Positions 12,775 to 31,145 of a stretch of 42,589 nucleotides of DNA are shown here, one piece after another. The stretch covers positions 1 to 42,589 of the forward strand of contig JALHNQ010000028.1 of NCBI GenBank assembly GCA_022843405.1, read 5' to 3'. A program made the position numbers and the translations under genes. Source of the DNA: Methylocystis sp. Lineage in GTDB: Bacteria; Pseudomonadota; Alphaproteobacteria; Rhizobiales; Beijerinckiaceae. The first letter of the stretch is position 1, and every line of letters begins with the position of its first letter. The notes beneath the pieces were generated by a model that was not told where the DNA came from, made no database searches, and saw only the letters and a program-made list of their open reading frames with translations.

Positions 12775-13368
12775 ATGGACTCCATCATATACGACCTCCT
12801 CGCGGTTGCGATCGGCTATCTGCTCGGCTCCATTCCTTTCGGTCTGCTGCTGACGCGCTTGGCGGGCGCCCCCGATCTTCGTTCGATCGGTTCGGGCAAT
12901 ATCGGCGCGACCAACGTGCTGCGCACCGGTCGCAAGGATCTGGCGGCTGCGACGTTGCTTCTCGACGGGTTGAAGGGAACGGCGGCGGCGCTCATCGGCG
13001 CTTCGCTTTCGCCCGAAGGCGGGATGATCGCCGGGCTCGCGGCGTTCGTCGGCCATGTCGCGCCGGTCTGGCTGCAGTTCAGGGGCGGCAAGGGCGTCGC
13101 GACCTTTCTTGGCGTGCTGTTTGGCCTCAATTGGCCGACGGCGCTGATTTTCTGCGCCGTTTGGCTGTCGGCGGCGGCGCTGTCGCGATACTCCTCGCTT
13201 GGCGCGCTGGCGGCGAGCGCGGCGGCCCCGCTGGCCTTGTTCATCTTTGGCCACACAGGCGAAGCCTTTGGCGTGGCGATCATGGCCGTGATCGTCTACT
13301 ACAGGCATAAAGACAATATCGCCCGTTTGCGCGCCGGCTCCGAAACGCGGATCGGACAAAAGGCGTGA
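12775..13368 (+). CDS. plsY: Glycerol-3-phosphate acyltransferase PlsY
   Basis: 197 aa, normal length. An inner-membrane enzyme that moves an acyl group from acyl-phosphate to glycerol-3-phosphate, the first step of phospholipid synthesis. The three conserved loops are visible: GSIPFG and [22 protein letters not shown], and [12 protein letters not shown], with YYRHKDNI near the C-terminus. Five or so hydrophobic helices separate them. The stop TGA overlaps the GTG start of dprA (GTGA), so plsY and dprA formed one operon before dprA was interrupted. Confidence 0.95.
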
Positions 13369-13453
13369 GTGAGGCTGCGCCGCCAGGACGGTTGAGCGAG
13401 GCGCAACTCGTCGACTGGCTCAGGCTGATTCGCAGCGAAAACATCGGACCGCG
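13365..13453 (+). pseudogene. dprA: dprA, 5' fragment (gene interrupted by an IS element)
   Basis: The first 29 codons and part of the next: GTG start overlapping the plsY stop, then LSEAQLVDWLRLIRSENIGP, the N-terminal helical segment of DprA. The frame then enters the insertion element (Gly-Ile-Met-Ala-Gln...). Deleting the element and one copy of the 8-bp duplication (13454-17194) joins this fragment exactly in frame to 17195-18377 and gives a 423-codon dprA. The fragment alone cannot function. Confidence 0.93.
13446..13453. repeat. Target-site duplication, left copy (GGACCGCG)
   Basis: The 8-bp sequence GGACCGCG directly precedes the left inverted repeat and recurs directly after the right one at 17187-17194. 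Eight base pairs is the usual duplication of IS1595-family elements. Confidence 0.95.
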
Positions 13454-13479
13454 CGGTATTATGGCGCAAACGCCACAAG
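13454..13479 (+). repeat. Left terminal inverted repeat (26 bp)
   Basis: Begins CGGTATTATGGCGCAAACGC and ends CACAAG; it is the exact reverse complement of 17161-17186. Within it TGGCG-CAAA-CGCCA can fold as a small hairpin, so each end of the element has an internal palindrome. Confidence 0.96.
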
Positions 13480-13539
13480 GGGCGCGCGGCGGCGAAGGCG
13501 CTTTTGGTGCTTGTGGCCTTTTTTACCATCGGCCCTGGT

Positions 13540-14499
13540 TCAATCGACGTAGCCAGAAGCGAAAGCTCGGTTGATTTTCATTTCCGAAATCGTGACCGTG
13601 TGATCGTGCGAACCGAACAAGAGCGAGAGTTTCGGCTCATCTGGACTCGGTCTAATCAATTCATACATAAAGCCGGTGTGATGGATCGTCTTATCAACGG
13701 GCGACCGGTAACAAACACTCCCGACGAGACGGGGGGAAAAGCCTCTGTCTTCTCTCCCACCGGTAAACTTCTCAATTTCGTCTCTATTGATCGACATCCC
13801 ACGAATTATTTTCATCTTACATTGTGGAAACAGGTTGTGACCGATAACCATTGGATCTGGCCGCTTCAGACCGGAATAGTATCGCGTTTGTTCCTTCATG
13901 ATTTCATCGATCAGCGAATGGGCGCGATCTTCCTGACTAATAAAATGGCAGCTAATCATGATATTGAGCGCCGGGGAATTGCCAGTGTTTCGTATCTTGA
14001 AACCGATAGTGATCTTTCCGCTGCGGTCTTTAAAAACAAGGTCGCTGGCGAGGTTCGGTTTTACAGAGAGCCACGGTCGATGATCGGCAACGAAAGCTTC
14101 TCGGCTCTGGTCATTCGATTTCTGGGCGACCCTAATGCTTTTCCAAACAAGAAGTATGCCGATAGTCGTTATGACGAACCCAAACAGCGTGACCCAAAAC
14201 GTGCACTTCGCCCAGAAGGCCATTTCTTCTTGAGCTGCAAGATCACGCTTAGTTTGATTATCTTCGTCGGCGGTCTTTGGCTTGTTTATATTGGTTTCCA
14301 GCGCACGGATGATGTTACCGATTTGGATTTGAAGGGCATCAAGTATCAGTCGTGTTTTGTCGTTCTGTGGGCTTTGCTCATTTTTTTGGGCGCTGGCATG
14401 GCCTCTGGTGTTGTTACCTACTGGTTGAGCCAGTATGCCCCCAGTGCTTACGAGGATTCCGAAAGCCGCAACGACTGACAACCAATTGCTTCGAGACAT
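13540..14499 (-). CDS. Passenger membrane protein of unknown function
   Basis: 319 aa, not recognised as a named family. A hydrophobic N-terminus (about 6-24, LSVVAAFGILVSTGGILA) may be a signal or first helix. A linker rich in Asn/Gln/Lys follows, then a membrane helix (about 96-116, FWVTLFGFVITTIGILLVW) leading into SIRVAQKSNDQSREAFVADH, a helix-plus-HRPW pattern seen in many uncharacterised single-pass proteins. The C-terminal 180 residues look like a beta-rich soluble domain (GKITIGFKIRNTGNSPALNI). The ATG at 14499 lies 52 bp inside the DUF6471 gene, with no clear ribosome-binding site, so translational coupling or a later start is possible. Codon use is less GC-rich than the chromosome. 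Confidence 0.6.
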   Translation of the reverse strand: MSRSNWLSVVAAFGILVSTGGILAQPVGNNTRGHASAQKNEQSPQNDKTRLILDALQIQIGNIIRALETNINKPKTADEDNQTKRDLAAQEEMAFWAKCTFWVTLFGFVITTIGILLVWKSIRVAQKSNDQSREAFVADHRPWLSVKPNLASDLVFKDRSGKITIGFKIRNTGNSPALNIMISCHFISQEDRAHSLIDEIMKEQTRYYSGLKRPDPMVIGHNLFPQCKMKIIRGMSINRDEIEKFTGGREDRGFSPRLVGSVCYRSPVDKTIHHTGFMYELIRPSPDEPKLSLLFGSHDHTVTISEMKINRAFASGYVD

Positions 14500-14681
14500 T
14501 GGACTAAAAACACCGCCGTGAATCCACCACGGCTGATCTTATTGGCAATGTTCCTTTCTGTCTCTGGAATCCCCATGACGGTTAGTTTTTCTGCCAATTC
14601 GCGATACCCGAACCCCCGTTTTTTGAGTTCGGCCTTCAGGAGCCCTTTAACCCGCTGTTCCCACTCAGGATTTTTAGCCAT
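14448..14681 (-). CDS. DUF6471-type helix-turn-helix protein (passenger)
   Basis: 77 aa. The pattern of a WEQRVKGLLKAELKKRGFGY helix, then YRELAEKLTVMGIPETERN, NKISRGGFTAVF and a QCLEAIG end matches the small DUF6471 domain, which resembles a Cro/C1-type DNA-binding helix-turn-helix. It probably controls the divergent promoter between itself and the transposase, where repeats of TATCCG are found. It overlaps the downstream membrane protein gene. Family function is unknown; the regulatory role is inferred. Confidence 0.72.
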   Translation of the reverse strand: MAKNPEWEQRVKGLLKAELKKRGFGYRELAEKLTVMGIPETERNIANKISRGGFTAVFLVQCLEAIGCQSLRLSESS

Positions 14682-14794
14682 ACTGATACCTCGTATCCGA
14701 CAATGAAAATCATCATATGCGATATATTTGTCATTGACAATATGGTGCGACTATATCATCATATCCGGCATAAATACACCGGATACGACGATAA
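14682..14794. promoter_or_regulatory. Divergent control region of the element with palindromes
   Basis: An AT-rich gap between the DUF6471 gene (minus) and the transposase (plus). It contains a 13-bp palindrome TTGTCATTGACAA (14728-14740) whose right half gives TTGACA, a -35-like sequence; the arms TCGTATCCG (about 14690) and CGGATACGA (about 14777); a 7-bp inverted repeat TATCCGG/CCGGATA around 14762-14782; and two direct copies of ATCATCATAT (14709-14718 and 14755-14764). I read it as a back-to-back promoter with operators, perhaps for the DUF6471 protein. Confidence 0.5.
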
Positions 14795-15778
14795 ATGGCC
14801 CAACACTTCCTTCTCTCCCGCGCCGCCAAGACGCTCTCGCTCGCCGCGATCTTCCGTATGTCGGATGCTGACGCCGAGACGATGTTCTGCCGCGTGCGCT
14901 GGCCTGAGACGGACGGCAAGCCGGTTTGTCCGCATTGCGGCGGTGTGGAAGCCTATGACTGCCGCCGCCCGAGCGGCGCGCCGCGCTTCCGTTGCCGCGC
15001 CTGCGCGAAGGATTTCAGCGTGACCTCGGGGACGCTCTTTGCGTCTCACAAGCTGCCCTTGCGCGTCTATCTCGCCGCTATCGCCATCTTCGCCAATGAG
15101 GTGAAGGGCAAGAGCGCTCTCGCCATGTCTCGCGACTTGGGAACATCCTACAAGGCCGCCTTCGTCCTGTTGCACAAGCTGCGCGAGGCGATGGCCGAAG
15201 AAATGAAAGGCCGCGTTGTCGGCGGCGCCGGCGAGGAAGTGGAGATCGACGGCGGTTATTTCGGTGGTTACGTGAAACCCGCCAACTACAAAGAGAACCG
15301 CCGCGACCGCCGCTTTGGCGTGAACCAGTCCGGCGCTCGCCAGTGCGTCGTTATCGTCCGCGAGCGCAACGGCCATTCTGTGCCGGCCGTGTTTCATGCG
15401 GAAAGCCATGCGCTAGACTTCGTTCGCCGCCGCATCGCGAAAGGTTCAATCGTTCACGCCGACGAAGCCGGCTCTTGGGATGCATTGCACGCCAACTTCG
15501 AAATGAAGCGCATCAATCATCAGGAAGCCTTTTCCGACAATGGCGCCTGCACGAACAACGCCGAGTCCTATTTCTCGCGACTGCGCCGCGCCGAGATCGG
15601 CCACCACCATTCTGTTGCTGGCCAGTATCTGCTTCGCTATGCGCAGGAAAGCTCTTGGCGAGAGGATCACCGCCGCATGTCAAACGGCGAACAGGTGAGC
15701 CGCATTGCGGCGCTAGCGATGAAAAAGAAGACGAGCCCGGACTTCACCGGATATTGGCAGCGGCATATTGCGGCGTGA
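14795..15778 (+). CDS. IS1595 (ISXO2)-family transposase
   Basis: 327 aa. The N-terminal zinc ribbon is visible as CPHCGG (about 47-52) and CRRPSGAPRFRCRAC, followed by KDFSVTSGTLFASHKLPL, the typical ISXO2-like block. The helical region SALAMSRDLGTSYKAAFVLLHK follows. The DDE_Tnp_IS1595 catalytic core has VEIDGGYFGGYVKP with the first Asp, IVHADEAGSWDAL with the second Asp, and NAESYFSRLRRAEIGHHHS with the Asn/Glu-type last residues of this family. It catalyses cut-and-paste movement of the element and appears intact. It uses the rare UCA serine codon at least twice (15446-15448 and 15680-15682). No strong ribosome-binding site precedes the ATG. Confidence 0.93.
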   Translation: MAQHFLLSRAAKTLSLAAIFRMSDADAETMFCRVRWPETDGKPVCPHCGGVEAYDCRRPSGAPRFRCRACAKDFSVTSGTLFASHKLPLRVYLAAIAIFANEVKGKSALAMSRDLGTSYKAAFVLLHKLREAMAEEMKGRVVGGAGEEVEIDGGYFGGYVKPANYKENRRDRRFGVNQSGARQCVVIVRERNGHSVPAVFHAESHALDFVRRRIAKGSIVHADEAGSWDALHANFEMKRINHQEAFSDNGACTNNAESYFSRLRRAEIGHHHSVAGQYLLRYAQESSWREDHRRMSNGEQVSRIAALAMKKKTSPDFTGYWQRHIAA

Positions 15779-15812
15779 TTATATTCTCATTTGATTACCT
15801 TGACAGAAGACC

Positions 15813-15841
15813 TTGACGAACGGCGTTCATCAAGAGATAGT
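15813..15841 (+). promoter_or_regulatory. Candidate promoter for the first tRNA
   Basis: TTGACG (15813-15818), a 17-bp spacer, and GATAGT (15836-15841), ending 7 bp before the first tRNA base. The spacing and four-of-six match in the -10 fit a sigma-70-type promoter that would start transcription at the tRNA 5' end. A second TTGACA is at 15800-15805. Confidence 0.5.
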
Positions 15842-15848
15842 TCGTCGT

Positions 15849-15937
15849 GCCCGTGTGGCGGAATTGGTAGACGCAACGGTCTTGAAAACCGAAGTCCTCT
15901 CCGGGGCGTGCAGGTTCGAATCCTGTTGCGGGCACCA
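15849..15937 (+). tRNA. tRNA with UGA (Ser) anticodon on a leucine-type body, CCA encoded
   Basis: 89 nt including CCA, folded by eye. Acceptor GCCCGTG pairs with TGCGGGC (two G-T pairs), then A73 and CCA. The D-arm GCGGAATTGGTAGACGC is the standard bacterial tRNA-Leu form. The anticodon arm CGGT-CTTGAAA-ACCG places UGA at positions 34-36 and nearly copies the anticodon arm of tRNA-Ser(UGA). A long variable arm (AGTCCTCTCCGGGGCGT) is followed by the T-arm GCAGG-TTCGAAT-CCTGT. A73 and the D-arm favour LeuRS, the anticodon reads UCA serine codons. It may charge with Leu, with Ser, or poorly. It is carried inside the IS1595-type element. Confidence 0.82.
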
Positions 15938-15958
15938 TCGCAACCAAAGGAAACAACA

Positions 15959-16363
15959 ATGAAACCAACAGGGAAGCGCATGAAAGTCCTAGACGACGAC
16001 GTCGCGCGTGTGGACGCGGAAATCGCTCGACTACAGGCGTTGCGAGAAGGACTCCTCCGAGCAAAGGTTCTCATCTCAGGCGAGACGCCGGCCACCCCGA
16101 ATGTTGACGGCCGGAAGCGATCTCCAAACATCAAGCCCCTCATTCTTGATTACATGAAATCCGTGGAGGCGCGCGGGGCTACCTCTATCGAGGTGTCGGC
16201 GATCATCAAGGAGCGGGTTCCTACTGTCGCCAAGGACAGCGTAGGGTCGATTCTTTCGCGATTGAAGGCGGATGGAGCGCTAGCTTACGATGGGGAGAGG
16301 TACTACGACGCCCGCTTCGCGCCAAAGACGGAGCGCCCGTTTGAGCCGCGCGTAGTGGCCTAG
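15959..16363 (+). CDS. Small passenger protein: coiled coil plus winged-helix-like domain
   Basis: 134 aa, not recognised by name. Residues 8-38 form a heptad-rich helix (VARVDAEIARLQALREGLL), a Pro/Arg-rich linker follows, and residues about 58-115 (IKPLILDYMKSVEARGATSI, then SVGSILSRLKADGALAYDGE) have the pattern of a winged helix-turn-helix DNA-binding domain. The ATG at 15959 follows CAAAGGAAACAAC; a longer frame would run through the tRNA and is rejected. The gene begins 21 bp after the first tRNA and ends 44 bp before the second, so it may be processed from one transcript with them. Ser40 uses the rare UCA codon (16076-16078). Architecture resembles the protein at 16682-17128. Confidence 0.68.
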   Translation: MKPTGKRMKVLDDDVARVDAEIARLQALREGLLRAKVLISGETPATPNVDGRKRSPNIKPLILDYMKSVEARGATSIEVSAIIKERVPTVAKDSVGSILSRLKADGALAYDGERYYDARFAPKTERPFEPRVVA

Positions 16364-16370
16364 TAATTGA

Positions 16371-16398
16371 GAGCCCCAGGGCTGCAACCCTGGGGCTC
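16371..16398 (+). terminator. Strong hairpin without U-tract (possible terminator or processing site)
   Basis: GAGCCCCAGGG pairs perfectly with CCCTGGGGCTC around CTGCAA. It follows the small passenger gene by 7 bp and precedes the second tRNA by 9 bp. No run of T follows, so it may be an mRNA 3' stabiliser or tRNA-processing boundary rather than a classical terminator. Confidence 0.5.
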
Positions 16399-16407
16399 AA
16401 AGGTGAT

Positions 16408-16484
16408 GGCGCGGTAGCTCAGCTGGACAGAGCGGGGGTGTCGTAATCCCAATGTCGCCGGTTCGAATCCGGCCCGCGCCGCCA
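16408..16484 (+). tRNA. tRNA-like gene, arginine-type body with probable CGU anticodon, CCA encoded
   Basis: 77 nt including CCA, folded by eye. Acceptor GGCGCGG pairs perfectly with CCGCGCC, followed by G73 and CCA. D-arm GCTCAGCTGGACAGAGC, with A20, is the bacterial tRNA-Arg form. T-arm GCCGG-TTCGAAT-CCGGC is perfect. The anticodon stem is weak: GGGGT against TCCCA gives three G-C pairs with mismatches at both ends. With U33 fixed, the loop GTCGTAA gives CGU, a threonine anticodon. UCG (Arg) would need a G at position 33. It is either a chimeric/degenerate tRNA or a tRNA-shaped RNA. It lies inside the IS1595-type element. Confidence 0.72.
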
Positions 16485-16681
16485 TCTCTTGGAATTGATC
16501 GAAGCCTCTCCGGGGCGTTTCCATCGCTTCCATAAAAATGGTCTCATATTAGTCCGATGGGACCTAATCAATTTTGTTTTACAGACTCCCTTGATAGCCA
16601 ATTTCGGGAGTCTGTTTATCAACTAAAAACTCCACGAAATTTCCAAGGAGTCTTTTGAATTAAAAACTGTTTCAAAAAAAG

Positions 16682-17128
16682 CTAGCTGAAAAGCTGGCCA
16701 GCAAGTTCCCACTTCGCCGGCATACCCTCACCAACGCGCCGCACTGTCTTCCCTTCATTATTCCGAAGCGACGCCTGCACGCCGCCGATTAAATCACGCA
16801 CGGCTTTCTGGTCTGGCGCAGAGACGCCTTGGGCCGCGAGCATCGCCAACGTGAGTTGGCGTGCCGTAAGCGGCCCTGCAGCCTTCCTGAGAGCTTCCAA
16901 GGCATGTCGGAATAATGTCCCGCGCTTGAACCACGCATTGCCCTTGTGGCGTCGGCGAGGCGCAATCGCCTGTAGATTGAAGCCCGGCTCGAACATCCGA
17001 ATGACGGCCTCGACATGTTTCATGTCGCCGGCGAGCTTTTCGGCGCGTTTCCGGTTCTCGAAAATTTGCCCGCCTAAATCGGCGTGAAGCTTAATGAGGC
17101 CGGAGAGGATAGGATGATTGGTTCGCAT
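16682..17128 (-). CDS. Small passenger protein: helical N-terminus plus winged-helix-like domain
   Basis: 148 aa. The N-terminal 45 residues look helical (LSGLIKLHADLGGQIFENRK, then EKLAGDMKHVEAVIRMF), a basic segment APRRRHKGNAWFKRG follows, and the C-terminal half (FRHALEALRKAAGPLTARQL, then DLIGGVQASLRNNEGKTVRR) has a winged-helix-like pattern. I recall similar uncharacterised proteins being common in alphaproteobacterial mobile regions; no function is known. It is the last gene before the right inverted repeat and points inward. Its architecture parallels the plus-strand protein at 15959-16363, so both may be DNA-binding accessory or regulatory proteins of the element. Confidence 0.68.
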   Translation of the reverse strand: MRTNHPILSGLIKLHADLGGQIFENRKRAEKLAGDMKHVEAVIRMFEPGFNLQAIAPRRRHKGNAWFKRGTLFRHALEALRKAAGPLTARQLTLAMLAAQGVSAPDQKAVRDLIGGVQASLRNNEGKTVRRVGEGMPAKWELAGQLFS

Positions 17129-17160
17129 GCCCAGAAAATAAGGCTTCGCCGGCTAGATCG

Positions 17161-17186
17161 CTTGTGGCGTTTGCGCCATAATACCG
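17161..17186 (-). repeat. Right terminal inverted repeat (26 bp)
   Basis: Exact reverse complement of 13454-13479; it begins CTTGTGGCGTTTGCGCCATA and ends ATACCG. It contains the same internal hairpin as the left end. Confidence 0.96.
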
Positions 17187-17194
17187 GGACCGCG
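17187..17194. repeat. Target-site duplication, right copy (GGACCGCG)
   Basis: Identical to 13446-13453 and immediately outside the right inverted repeat. After it the dprA reading frame resumes (GATCTTCAGGCAGCTC). Confidence 0.95.
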
Positions 17195-18377
17195 GATCTT
17201 CAGGCAGCTCATCAATCGCTTCGGCGGCGCAGGTGCCGCGCTGGACGCGTTGCCGTCATTGGCGGCGCAGTCCGTGCGCGGCCGGATCATCCGCATCGCT
17301 ACCCGCGAGGAAGCGTTGCGCGAGATCGAGGCGGCGCGTCCGCTCGGCGTGCGCTTCGTCACCACCGGCGATCCCGACTATCCGCCGCTGCTCAAGGAAA
17401 TCGCCGATGCGCCGCCGCTGATCGCTCTGCGCGGCGCGTCGTGGGCCGCGCAGCGCGACGGCGTCGCGGTCGTCGGTTCGCGCAATGCTTCGGCGGCGGG
17501 TCTTACCTTCACGGAACGGCTTGCGCGCAGTCTCGCGCTCGAGAATTACGTCATCGTCTCCGGCCTTGCGCGCGGCATAGACGCCGTCGCCCATCGCGCC
17601 GCGCTTGAAACCGGCACGATCGCCGTTCTCGCCGGCGGACACGCGCGCCCCTATCCTTCCGAACATGCGCGTCTCGTCGAAGAAATCGCCGAGAGGGGGC
17701 TGATCGTCTCCGAAATGCCGATCGAATGGGAGCCGCGCGGTCGCGATTTTCCGCGCCGAAATCGGATCATTTCGGGGCTCAGCCGGGCGACGATCGTCGT
17801 CGAGGCGGCGCGCCGCTCGGGGTCCCTGATCACGGCGCGCTTCGCCAATGAGCAGGGGCGAGAGGTCTTCGCCGTTCCGGGCTCGCCGCTCGATCCGCGC
17901 GCGGAAGGCGTTAATGATCTCATTCGCCAAGGCGCGACTTTATGCGCTCGACCCGAGGACGTGATTTCGGTCCTAGCCGAAAACGCCGGCGCGCCGGCGC
18001 GCAAGAATCTCTTCGACGACGACGCGCGCGCCGGCGAGGAAACCCTGATCGACGAATTGGATCTTTTCTCCGCCCTCGACGAGTCGGCGTTCGAGGAGAG
18101 AAGCGCGCCAAATCGCTTCTCGGCGCCGCTCCCGCCGGCGGAATGCGGCGCCGATCTCGACCTGCGCATGCAAGGCGAGCGGACGCCGCAGGCGGATGCT
18201 CACGAGATTATCGTTTCTCTGCTCGGACCTGCGCCGATCGCGATCGATGACCTCATCCGCGTCGCCGGTTTAACGGCGCGCGAGGTGCAGGGCGTGTTGG
18301 TCGAATTGGATGTCGAGGGTCGGCTACAGCGCCATGGGGCCAACATCGTTTCGCTCGTTTACAATCAAAAGTTGTGA
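17195..18377 (+). pseudogene. dprA: dprA, 3' fragment (DNA-processing protein, interrupted)
   Basis: The rest of DprA, the RecA-loading single-strand DNA-binding protein of natural transformation. It carries FRQLINRFGGAGAALDALP, then the Rossmann core: VAVVGSRNASAAGL, IVSGLARGIDAVAHRAAL, GTIAVLAGGHARPYP, GLIVSEMPIEWEPRGRDFPR, NRIISGLSRATIVVEAARRS, GSLITARFANEQGREVFAVP. The C-terminal winged helix (ITARE-type, PIAIDDLIRVAGLTAREVQG) is complete. No start with a convincing ribosome-binding site follows the insertion, so the fragment lacks its first 30 residues and its own promoter; weak expression from an internal TTG/GTG cannot be excluded. No other mutation is seen, in keeping with a recent insertion. 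Confidence 0.92.
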
Positions 18378-30746: not shown

Positions 30747-31044
30747 TCAAGGAGCCTAGGGGGGCGGTTGCGGGAAGTTCAACGCTGTCGGCGCGGCGGG
30801 AGGTTCCGGAGAACGCGGCAGGAGCGTTCAAATGCGCCAGTTTTCGCCGCAGGGCCAGTCCATTTTTGGCTCGCTGACCTAGCCTTGCGCTTATGAGGGC
30901 GCCGGACGGGTCGCGCCATCGCCGTCCTCAGGATAACGCATTGGCCGAGTTGATTTCTAGCTCGCCGTTCAAGCCAAAAAGTCCGGAACGCGACGGTCGG
31001 ACATCTGCGTTAACCTCATATTAATGATTATCGGTTTAGGCTGA

Positions 31045-31145
31045 ACGCATCCCTTCAGTGGGATTTCCGAGTGGCTTCTTCTCCACTCGTCCTTGATGCC
31101 TCCCTGTTAAGAAGCCTTGAGAGCCGCCTTGCGGCTCTCTTTTTG
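31045..31145 (+). ncRNA. suhB/mmgR-type (alpha-r14) small RNA
   Basis: Three consecutive hairpins were found by eye: ATCCC-TTCAGT-GGGAT (31049-31064), CGAGTGG-CTTCTTCT-CCACTCG (31068-31089), and the terminator GAGAGCCGC-CTT-GCGGCTCTC with a T-run (31119-31144). A single-stranded stretch with GCCTCCC (31098-31104) and the pyrimidine loop CTTCTTCT could pair with Shine-Dalgarno sequences. The position, next to suhB and on the opposite strand, is that of the Rfam suhB motif, known in rhizobia as mmgR, an sRNA affecting storage-granule synthesis. The exact 5' end is inferred; AT-rich promoter-like sequence lies at about 31010-31035. Confidence 0.75.
31118..31145 (+). terminator. Rho-independent terminator of the suhB/mmgR-type RNA
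   Basis: A perfect 9-bp stem (GAGAGCCGC/GCGGCTCTC) with a CTT loop and a TTTTT tail. Confidence 0.92.

Follow-up and report, generated by a model that had tools for sequence, protein, structure and literature searches.

A leucine-type tRNA gene with a serine (UGA) anticodon in an IS1595-family element of Methylocystis, and tRNA-like genes in related elements

Structure of the IS1595-family element

A 3,733 bp element of the IS1595 family, carrying passenger genes, occupies positions 13454–17186 (plus strand) of the window, the whole 42,589-nucleotide stretch of Methylocystis sp. DNA analysed here. It is bounded by terminal inverted repeats that match at 26 of 26 positions (CGGTATTATGGCGCAAACGCCACAAG; left, 13454–13479, plus strand; right, 17161–17186, minus strand) and flanked by a perfect 8-bp target-site duplication (GGACCGCG, 13446–13453 and 17187–17194), of the length typical of the family. 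The 327-residue transposase (14795–15778, plus strand) matches PF12762 (E 6e-36), PF12760 (E 1e-10) and NF033547 (143.6 bits), and these domains, the paired repeats and the duplication together bear out the assignment to an IS1595 element made in a preliminary description of the locus. The insertion interrupts dprA (13365–18377), the 3′ part of which matches TIGR00732 and the 5′ part of which lies, by reading, before the left end.

Two tRNA genes are carried by the element. The first, tRNA A (15849–15937, plus strand), is preceded by an 11-pair hairpin (15811–15835) and by a promoter-like site, TTGACG-17-GATAGT (15813–15841, plus strand), that ends 7 nt before the gene. The second, tRNA B (16408–16484, plus strand; Rfam, 55.9 bits), has an arginine-like body with, by reading, A20 and G73, and a hairpin with 14-nt arms lies 5′ of it (16371–16398). 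Its anticodon stem contains two mispairs in the Rfam alignment and its anticodon is ambiguous, CGU or UCG; ARAGORN reports ‘Arg|Thr (cg)’, and we did not keep the threonine reading of a loop that can be read two ways. Terminator-like hairpins number 8 in the region against 5.2 in shuffled sequence, and hairpins are also seen by eye 5′ of several tRNA-like genes in related elements; the 7 promoter-like sites against 2.2 in shuffles are weak evidence of a promoter.

The remaining passengers comprise overlapping candidate open reading frames (ORFs) on both strands at the left end (13504–14499), a 77-residue ORF upstream of the transposase (14448–14681, minus strand) with no NCBIfam match, a 134-residue ORF (15959–16363, plus strand) contained in a longer frame (15791–16363) and for which Pfam, NCBIfam and PADLOC gave nothing over cut-off, and a 148-residue ORF (16682–17128, minus strand) of a kind seen by eye at the right end of related elements, to which profile searches gave no family. 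PADLOC returned no match among the five passengers of the window, and profile searches found no synthetase among the element’s ORFs; nor was any passenger enzyme that uses aminoacyl-tRNA recognised, either by eye or in profile searches of the window’s ORFs. Elsewhere in the window, positions 31003–31144 encode the alphaproteobacterial sRNA BjrC1505 (Rfam RF02356, 61.8 bits).

A leucine-type body with a UGA anticodon

ARAGORN names the gene at 15849–15937 tRNA-Ser(tga), and in a search of the window the Rfam tRNA model RF00005 matches it with 54.0 bits (E 5e-9). By reading, it has A73, an encoded CCA end, the D arm GCGGAATTGGTAGACGC, a variable region of 17 nt and the anticodon loop CTTGAAA. 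Scored against isotype models, the body is of the leucine type, with 71.3 bits for the Leu model and 45.4 bits for the Ser model, a difference of +25.9. The models were built from six Leu and eight Ser tRNAs (six of the latter with UGA anticodons), some from viral contigs and none from the host, so that the host tRNAs could serve as held-out controls; these separated cleanly, with Leu minus Ser differences of +31.8 to +48.5 for 5/5 Leu tRNAs and −48.5 to −56.7 for 4/4 Ser tRNAs. A serine-type body with G73 is not what we find, as the discriminator is A73 and the Ser model falls 26 bits below the Leu model.

The anticodon arm tells a different story from the body. From C28 to G42 (CGGTCTTGAAAACCG) it matches the arm of the host Ser(UGA) gene at every position, including the Ser(UGA)-type pair U31-A39, and the resulting molecule joins a leucine-type body to an anticodon that reads no leucine codon. 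The anticodon stem is closed and of normal size, with an A27-A43 mispair and three wobble pairs, where host Leu tRNAs have at most one wobble. The Intron_gpI model has no match in the window, and tRNA A is not a tRNA-Leu split by an intron. This is a real and unusual gene, and its preliminary description as a leucine body with a Ser(UGA) anticodon arm was right: isotype scoring of the body could have returned serine and did not. Because annotation trusts the anticodon, mistranslating tRNAs are easily missed.

UCA codons and synthetases

The host genome encodes a Ser(UGA) tRNA of its own besides five Leu tRNAs, with one leuS and one serS over cut-off, neither of them in the element. The three UCA codons noted earlier in the element’s own genes (15446, 15680 and 16076) are indeed in frame, and UCA is as rare as had been claimed, with 13 occurrences in 6,889 codons of 19 host genes of the window chosen by eye. 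UCA belongs to the eight least used sense codons of these 19 genes and UAA ends 1/19, so misreading of such codons would be cheap. UCA density per 1,000 codons is 6.1 in the transposase gene (2 codons) and 7.5 in the 134-residue ORF (1 codon), against 1.9 in host genes. Leucine occurs at the transposase’s two UCA positions in 0/80 homologues, which makes it unlikely that tRNA A would serve to recode the element’s own transposase.

Divergence and distribution of tRNA A

tRNA A differs from the host Leu tRNAs at 11 to 18 of 40 stem positions and still keeps 19/20 stem pairs. When the same number of changes was simulated without constraint 20,000 times, at most 0.01% of runs retained pairing this well (one broken pair or fewer), a result that is silent on whether the divergence came before or after capture. 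No close source gene was found in 129 genomes of the family and 140 of the order: no near full-length match there exceeds 79% identity over 75 nt, or 77% when extended to the 3′ end, and shorter pieces match better. With 19/20 pairs kept and no close source, simple decay is unlikely. The 79% match, locus L391 from a different genome of the order, is itself a Leu-like tRNA, its anticodon being UUA (ochre); it lies on the minus strand at about 1489–1574, and the adjoining ORF reads by eye like a phage terminase. Among the 25 matches listed of 35 to phages, 20 are annotated as tRNA-Leu and 5 are unannotated.

The search for a similar gene elsewhere, which the preliminary description had proposed, returned very little. 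When a T arm is required, the pattern of a leucine body with a UGA anticodon occurs in 1/289 genomes of the class, the window’s own, and in 6 viral contigs, of which L189, L190 and L375 hold plausible Leu-type tRNAs by reading. These three and L162 combine a Leu-type D arm and UGA with the same U31-A39 loop form as tRNA A, and of these four, the three given model scores all fit Leu better than Ser. The looser pattern of a Leu D arm followed by TTGAA gave at least 143 matches. Among the 143 listed, 118 resemble, on a motif test, tRNA-Leu anticodon loops that hold a group I intron, 10 (tRNA A included) have an anticodon stem with at least 4/5 pairs, and 15 are neither; a group I intron was found at the Rfam cut-off in 1/7 such loci tested (L197), and the others are assigned by resemblance. 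We therefore rejected the idea of a widespread Leu-body/UGA gene, since most loose-pattern matches look like introns.

These scans also turned up many proteobacterial tRNA-Leu genes that look split by group I-like introns (L055–L173, L195 and L197), among them L195 from a genome of the same genus (by motif only), and anticodon-loop introns can mimic a UGA anticodon in pattern scans. A degenerate tRNA-Leu(UAA) duplicate with its anticodon changed to UGA and its T loop altered lies at L106 (4119–4206).

tRNA-like genes in related elements

Related elements were sought with the transposase in 199 family, 397 order and 385 class genomes, sets that overlap and for which part of the matches were fetched, and in four of 18 plasmid records. 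Of 86 transposase places examined, 63 have paired ends (246,956 bp in all, with a few near-copies, such as L238 and L239), and a perfect 8-bp duplication flanks 59 of these bounded elements. The earlier suggestion to look for the gene in other IS1595 elements proved fruitful: tRNA-like genes are present in 18/63 bounded elements, and the same searches found none in the other 45. They fall into eight tRNA genes in seven elements (tRNA A and tRNA B, L230, L234, L275, L279, L300 and L335) and 12 alanine-type (Ala-type) RNAs in 11 further elements (L230, in a second element, L240, L241, with two, L242, L244, L245, L247, L285, L287, L299 and L301), that of L245 being found by model R1 only, at 29.4 bits. 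Unbounded places (the second transposase of L039, L246, L272/L273, L274, whose element ends were not found, L297, L305, L307 and L336) are left out of these counts. A scan for an acceptor stem plus T arm gave 17 matches, where 20 dinucleotide shuffles averaged 1.75 and never exceeded 5; of the 17, L289 is spurious and lies within a transposase gene. ARAGORN at a lowered threshold gave noise, which we discarded.

The two elements closest to that of the window (transposase identity 89% and 87%) lack tRNA A or any other tRNA-like gene, so tRNA A is not fixed even locally. The transposase tree places 11/13 Ala-type rows in a single group of 19, itself weakly supported, and the other tRNA-like genes are scattered. 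The element resembles other IS1595-family insertion sequences with passengers in its transposase domains, inverted repeats, 8-bp duplication and possession of passenger genes, and differs in that the passengers are tRNA-like, for which searches of the open-licence literature gave us no description. This recurrence of tRNA-like passengers in one branch of IS1595 is a stronger and newer point than tRNA A itself.

Several of these genes also pair a body with the wrong anticodon. L275 has a serine body (74.0 bits Ser, 38.3 bits Leu) with a UUA anticodon, and L335 a serine body (61.4 bits Ser, 27.2 bits Leu) with, by reading, CCU; by our count their variable regions are about 48 and 46 nt long, against 18 nt in the host Ser(UGA). 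Nonsense suppression in the L275 element was considered and set aside, as reading TAA as sense opened no new convincing gene. L234 combines a Cys-like body and U73 with the loop CTTGAAA (UGA anticodon), and L230 keeps the cognate Cys anticodon GCA, with a bulge. Two Arg-like genes, L279 and L300, show damage in the anticodon arm; by reading, the acceptor stem of L300 contains two mispairs as well, and this gene and the unbounded L336 look degenerate. L274 (as L261) has an acceptor mispair. Aligned to Rfam, tRNA A, tRNA B, L204 and L215 depart from standard pairing in the anticodon stem alone. Across the relatives the acceptor and T arms are mostly kept, in part by ascertainment, since the scan required both and other detection favours them, and decoding is usually wrong, damaged or absent. 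In two different genomes, L272 and L273 have the same Gly-like tRNA (cognate GCC, altered T loop) with near-identical IS1595 transposases downstream.

The Ala-type RNAs share the strand of the transposase and precede it by about 350 to 580 nt, or by about 1 kb in L301. Without a base filter, bounded elements yielded nine of them, and all nine have G1-C72, G2-C71, G3:U70 and A73, the combination G3:U70 plus A73 being the alanine identity set. When unbounded RNAs at the same place are added, G3:U70 is present in 12/15 (L039, L297 and L307 are Ala-type; L272, L273 and L305 are not), and its presence in 14/14 Ala-type RNAs is partly built in by a TCCA/TTCA end filter, through which L240 and L241a entered. 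The host figure for G3:U70 is 2/40. Among the 14 Ala-type rows, two of them obtained through that filter, acceptor pairs 4 to 7 differ through changes on both strands of the stem, and the first T-stem pair is mispaired in 6/14. Model R1 was built from five of the 14, as a MAFFT alignment of all 14 misaligned the 5′ ends; it missed L244 at E up to 1, and it also matched several weak places, ordinary tRNAs among them. In 149 family genomes R1 gave three matches of 86 to 98 bits, all of them training sequences in IS1595 elements. The others scored 37.4 bits or less; two lie in IS1595 elements, and one checked in the host is a tRNA-Ala(CGC) gene. These genomes therefore hold no strong Ala-type copy outside IS1595, and no new one inside, that R1 could detect. 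In the window’s own genome (contig C18), L039 has an Ala-type RNA (2444–2515; R1, 28.9 bits) upstream of a second IS1595 transposase, with a terminator-like hairpin 5′ of it and toxin–antitoxin-like ORFs upstream, both by eye.

Interpretation of tRNA A and its relatives

Bacterial LeuRS depends little on the anticodon. If tRNA A is expressed and the host enzyme ignores its anticodon, a missense tRNA is the direct biochemical prediction from the sequence. Our preferred reading, to which we give a probability of roughly 40%, is that tRNA A is a mobile, probably leucine-charged misreader of UCA, and that selection acts on a tRNA-like body freed from cognate decoding. We infer that the RNA would be transcribed from its own or the transposase promoter, trimmed by RNase P and charged by host LeuRS; it would then compete with the host Ser-tRNA(UGA) for UCA codons and insert leucine there. 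Such misreading may be a tolerated or mildly useful side effect, and across the group selection could favour a tRNA-like body that can be charged or processed yet is free of cognate decoding. The wrong, damaged or absent anticodons of the relatives suggest as much, by shifting the property likely to be selected from decoding to the tRNA body. The clearest noncognate genes (with Leu or Ser bodies) and the anticodon-poor Ala-type class fit a rule in which charging is kept and cognate decoding is not, a rule that the Arg-like and Cys-like genes fit less well. For tRNA A itself, the full Ser(UGA) form of the anticodon arm fits real decoding better than mere tolerance. Extended to the whole branch, the argument would be that aminoacylatable tRNA-like RNAs uncoupled from cognate decoding are a functional component of these IS1595 elements: Leu/UGA in tRNA A, Ser with UUA or CCU, and the G3:U70 Ala-type RNAs of one clade, in which other acceptor pairs covary. 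We regard this wider claim as rather unlikely, and the bias of detection towards intact acceptor and T arms lowers our confidence in it and in the preferred reading alike.

A serious rival, and for this copy of tRNA A quite possible if on balance unlikely, is neutral cargo: a captured foreign tRNA gene that is drifting, perhaps silent, with an odd anticodon tolerated because UCA is rare. The absence of the gene from the two nearest elements, the 27-43 mispair and three wobble pairs, the weak promoter evidence and the degenerate look of some related genes (L300 and the unbounded L336) are all consistent with drift. Retention of 19/20 pairs at large divergence from the Leu genes found, together with a closed anticodon stem, CCA end and T loop, argues against drift, as does the recurrence of Ala-type RNAs in one clade at about the same place upstream of the transposase.

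Selection might alternatively favour leucine at UCA in its own right, for stress tolerance or phenotypic noise, as with tRNA-ProX of Streptomyces. The Ser(UGA)-type arm with its U31-A39 pair, and the same loop form in L162, L189, L190 and L375 (the three scored being Leu-type), would suit such a dedicated missense tRNA. We hold it to be improbable, given a single leuS and serS with no synthetase in the element’s ORFs, the 0/80 homologues with leucine at the transposase UCA sites, and several relatives that look unable to decode. Similarly improbable is a regulatory or decoy RNA, in which hairpin and tRNA-like structure would signal processing, form an mRNA end or compete for a tRNA-binding factor or nuclease, and charging would be incidental. 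The hairpins that immediately precede tRNA A and tRNA B, and by eye several of the related genes, point that way, and regulatory pseudo-tRNAs have been described (PMC3399842); against it, we identified no target or binding factor and PADLOC matched none of the five window passengers. A serine-charged tRNA supplying UCA decoding is very improbable: the UGA anticodon and the higher UCA density of the transposase gene and 134-residue ORF (2 and 1 codons) would agree with it, but the Leu-type body and A73 speak against the serine charging it needs, and the host already has Ser(UGA). The interpretation first offered for tRNA A survives in part: the Leu body, the Ser(UGA) arm and the IS1595 location are borne out, a missense role is predicted if the gene is expressed and charged by LeuRS, codon supply is unlikely, and nothing here speaks for a decoy of the kind first proposed.

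The closest known system to the proposed misreader is the tRNA-ProX mistranslators of Streptomyces and Kitasatospora, proline bodies with Ala, Asn or Thr anticodons whose genes often neighbour one that encodes ProRSx or a truncated form of it (commentary PMC10365949). Both join the canonical body of one isotype to the anticodon of another and are predicted to place the body’s amino acid at the anticodon’s codons; tRNA A differs in having a Leu body and UGA, and in residing in an IS1595 transposon with no partner synthetase. The Bacillus cereus pseudo-tRNA tRNAOther is likewise tied to mobile DNA, is poorly charged, is part of a longer RNA and is thought to act outside translation (PMC3399842); it flanks an island, whereas tRNA A lies inside a transposon and has a closed anticodon stem. 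A swap of anticodon and body that causes Leu/Ser ambiguity is also described for the fungal Candida CUG-clade tRNA-Ser(CAG), where, according to PMC10365949 and PMC11415595, a Ser body with a Leu anticodon accompanies clade-wide codon reassignment, the reverse of the Leu body with UGA in tRNA A.

If the preferred reading of tRNA A and its relatives is true, chargeable tRNA-like RNAs are being carried from host to host by small mobile elements. Only a few lineages are known to have mistranslating tRNAs, and the elements would raise the question of what a transposon gains from RNAs that synthetases may recognise but that do not serve their cognate codons.
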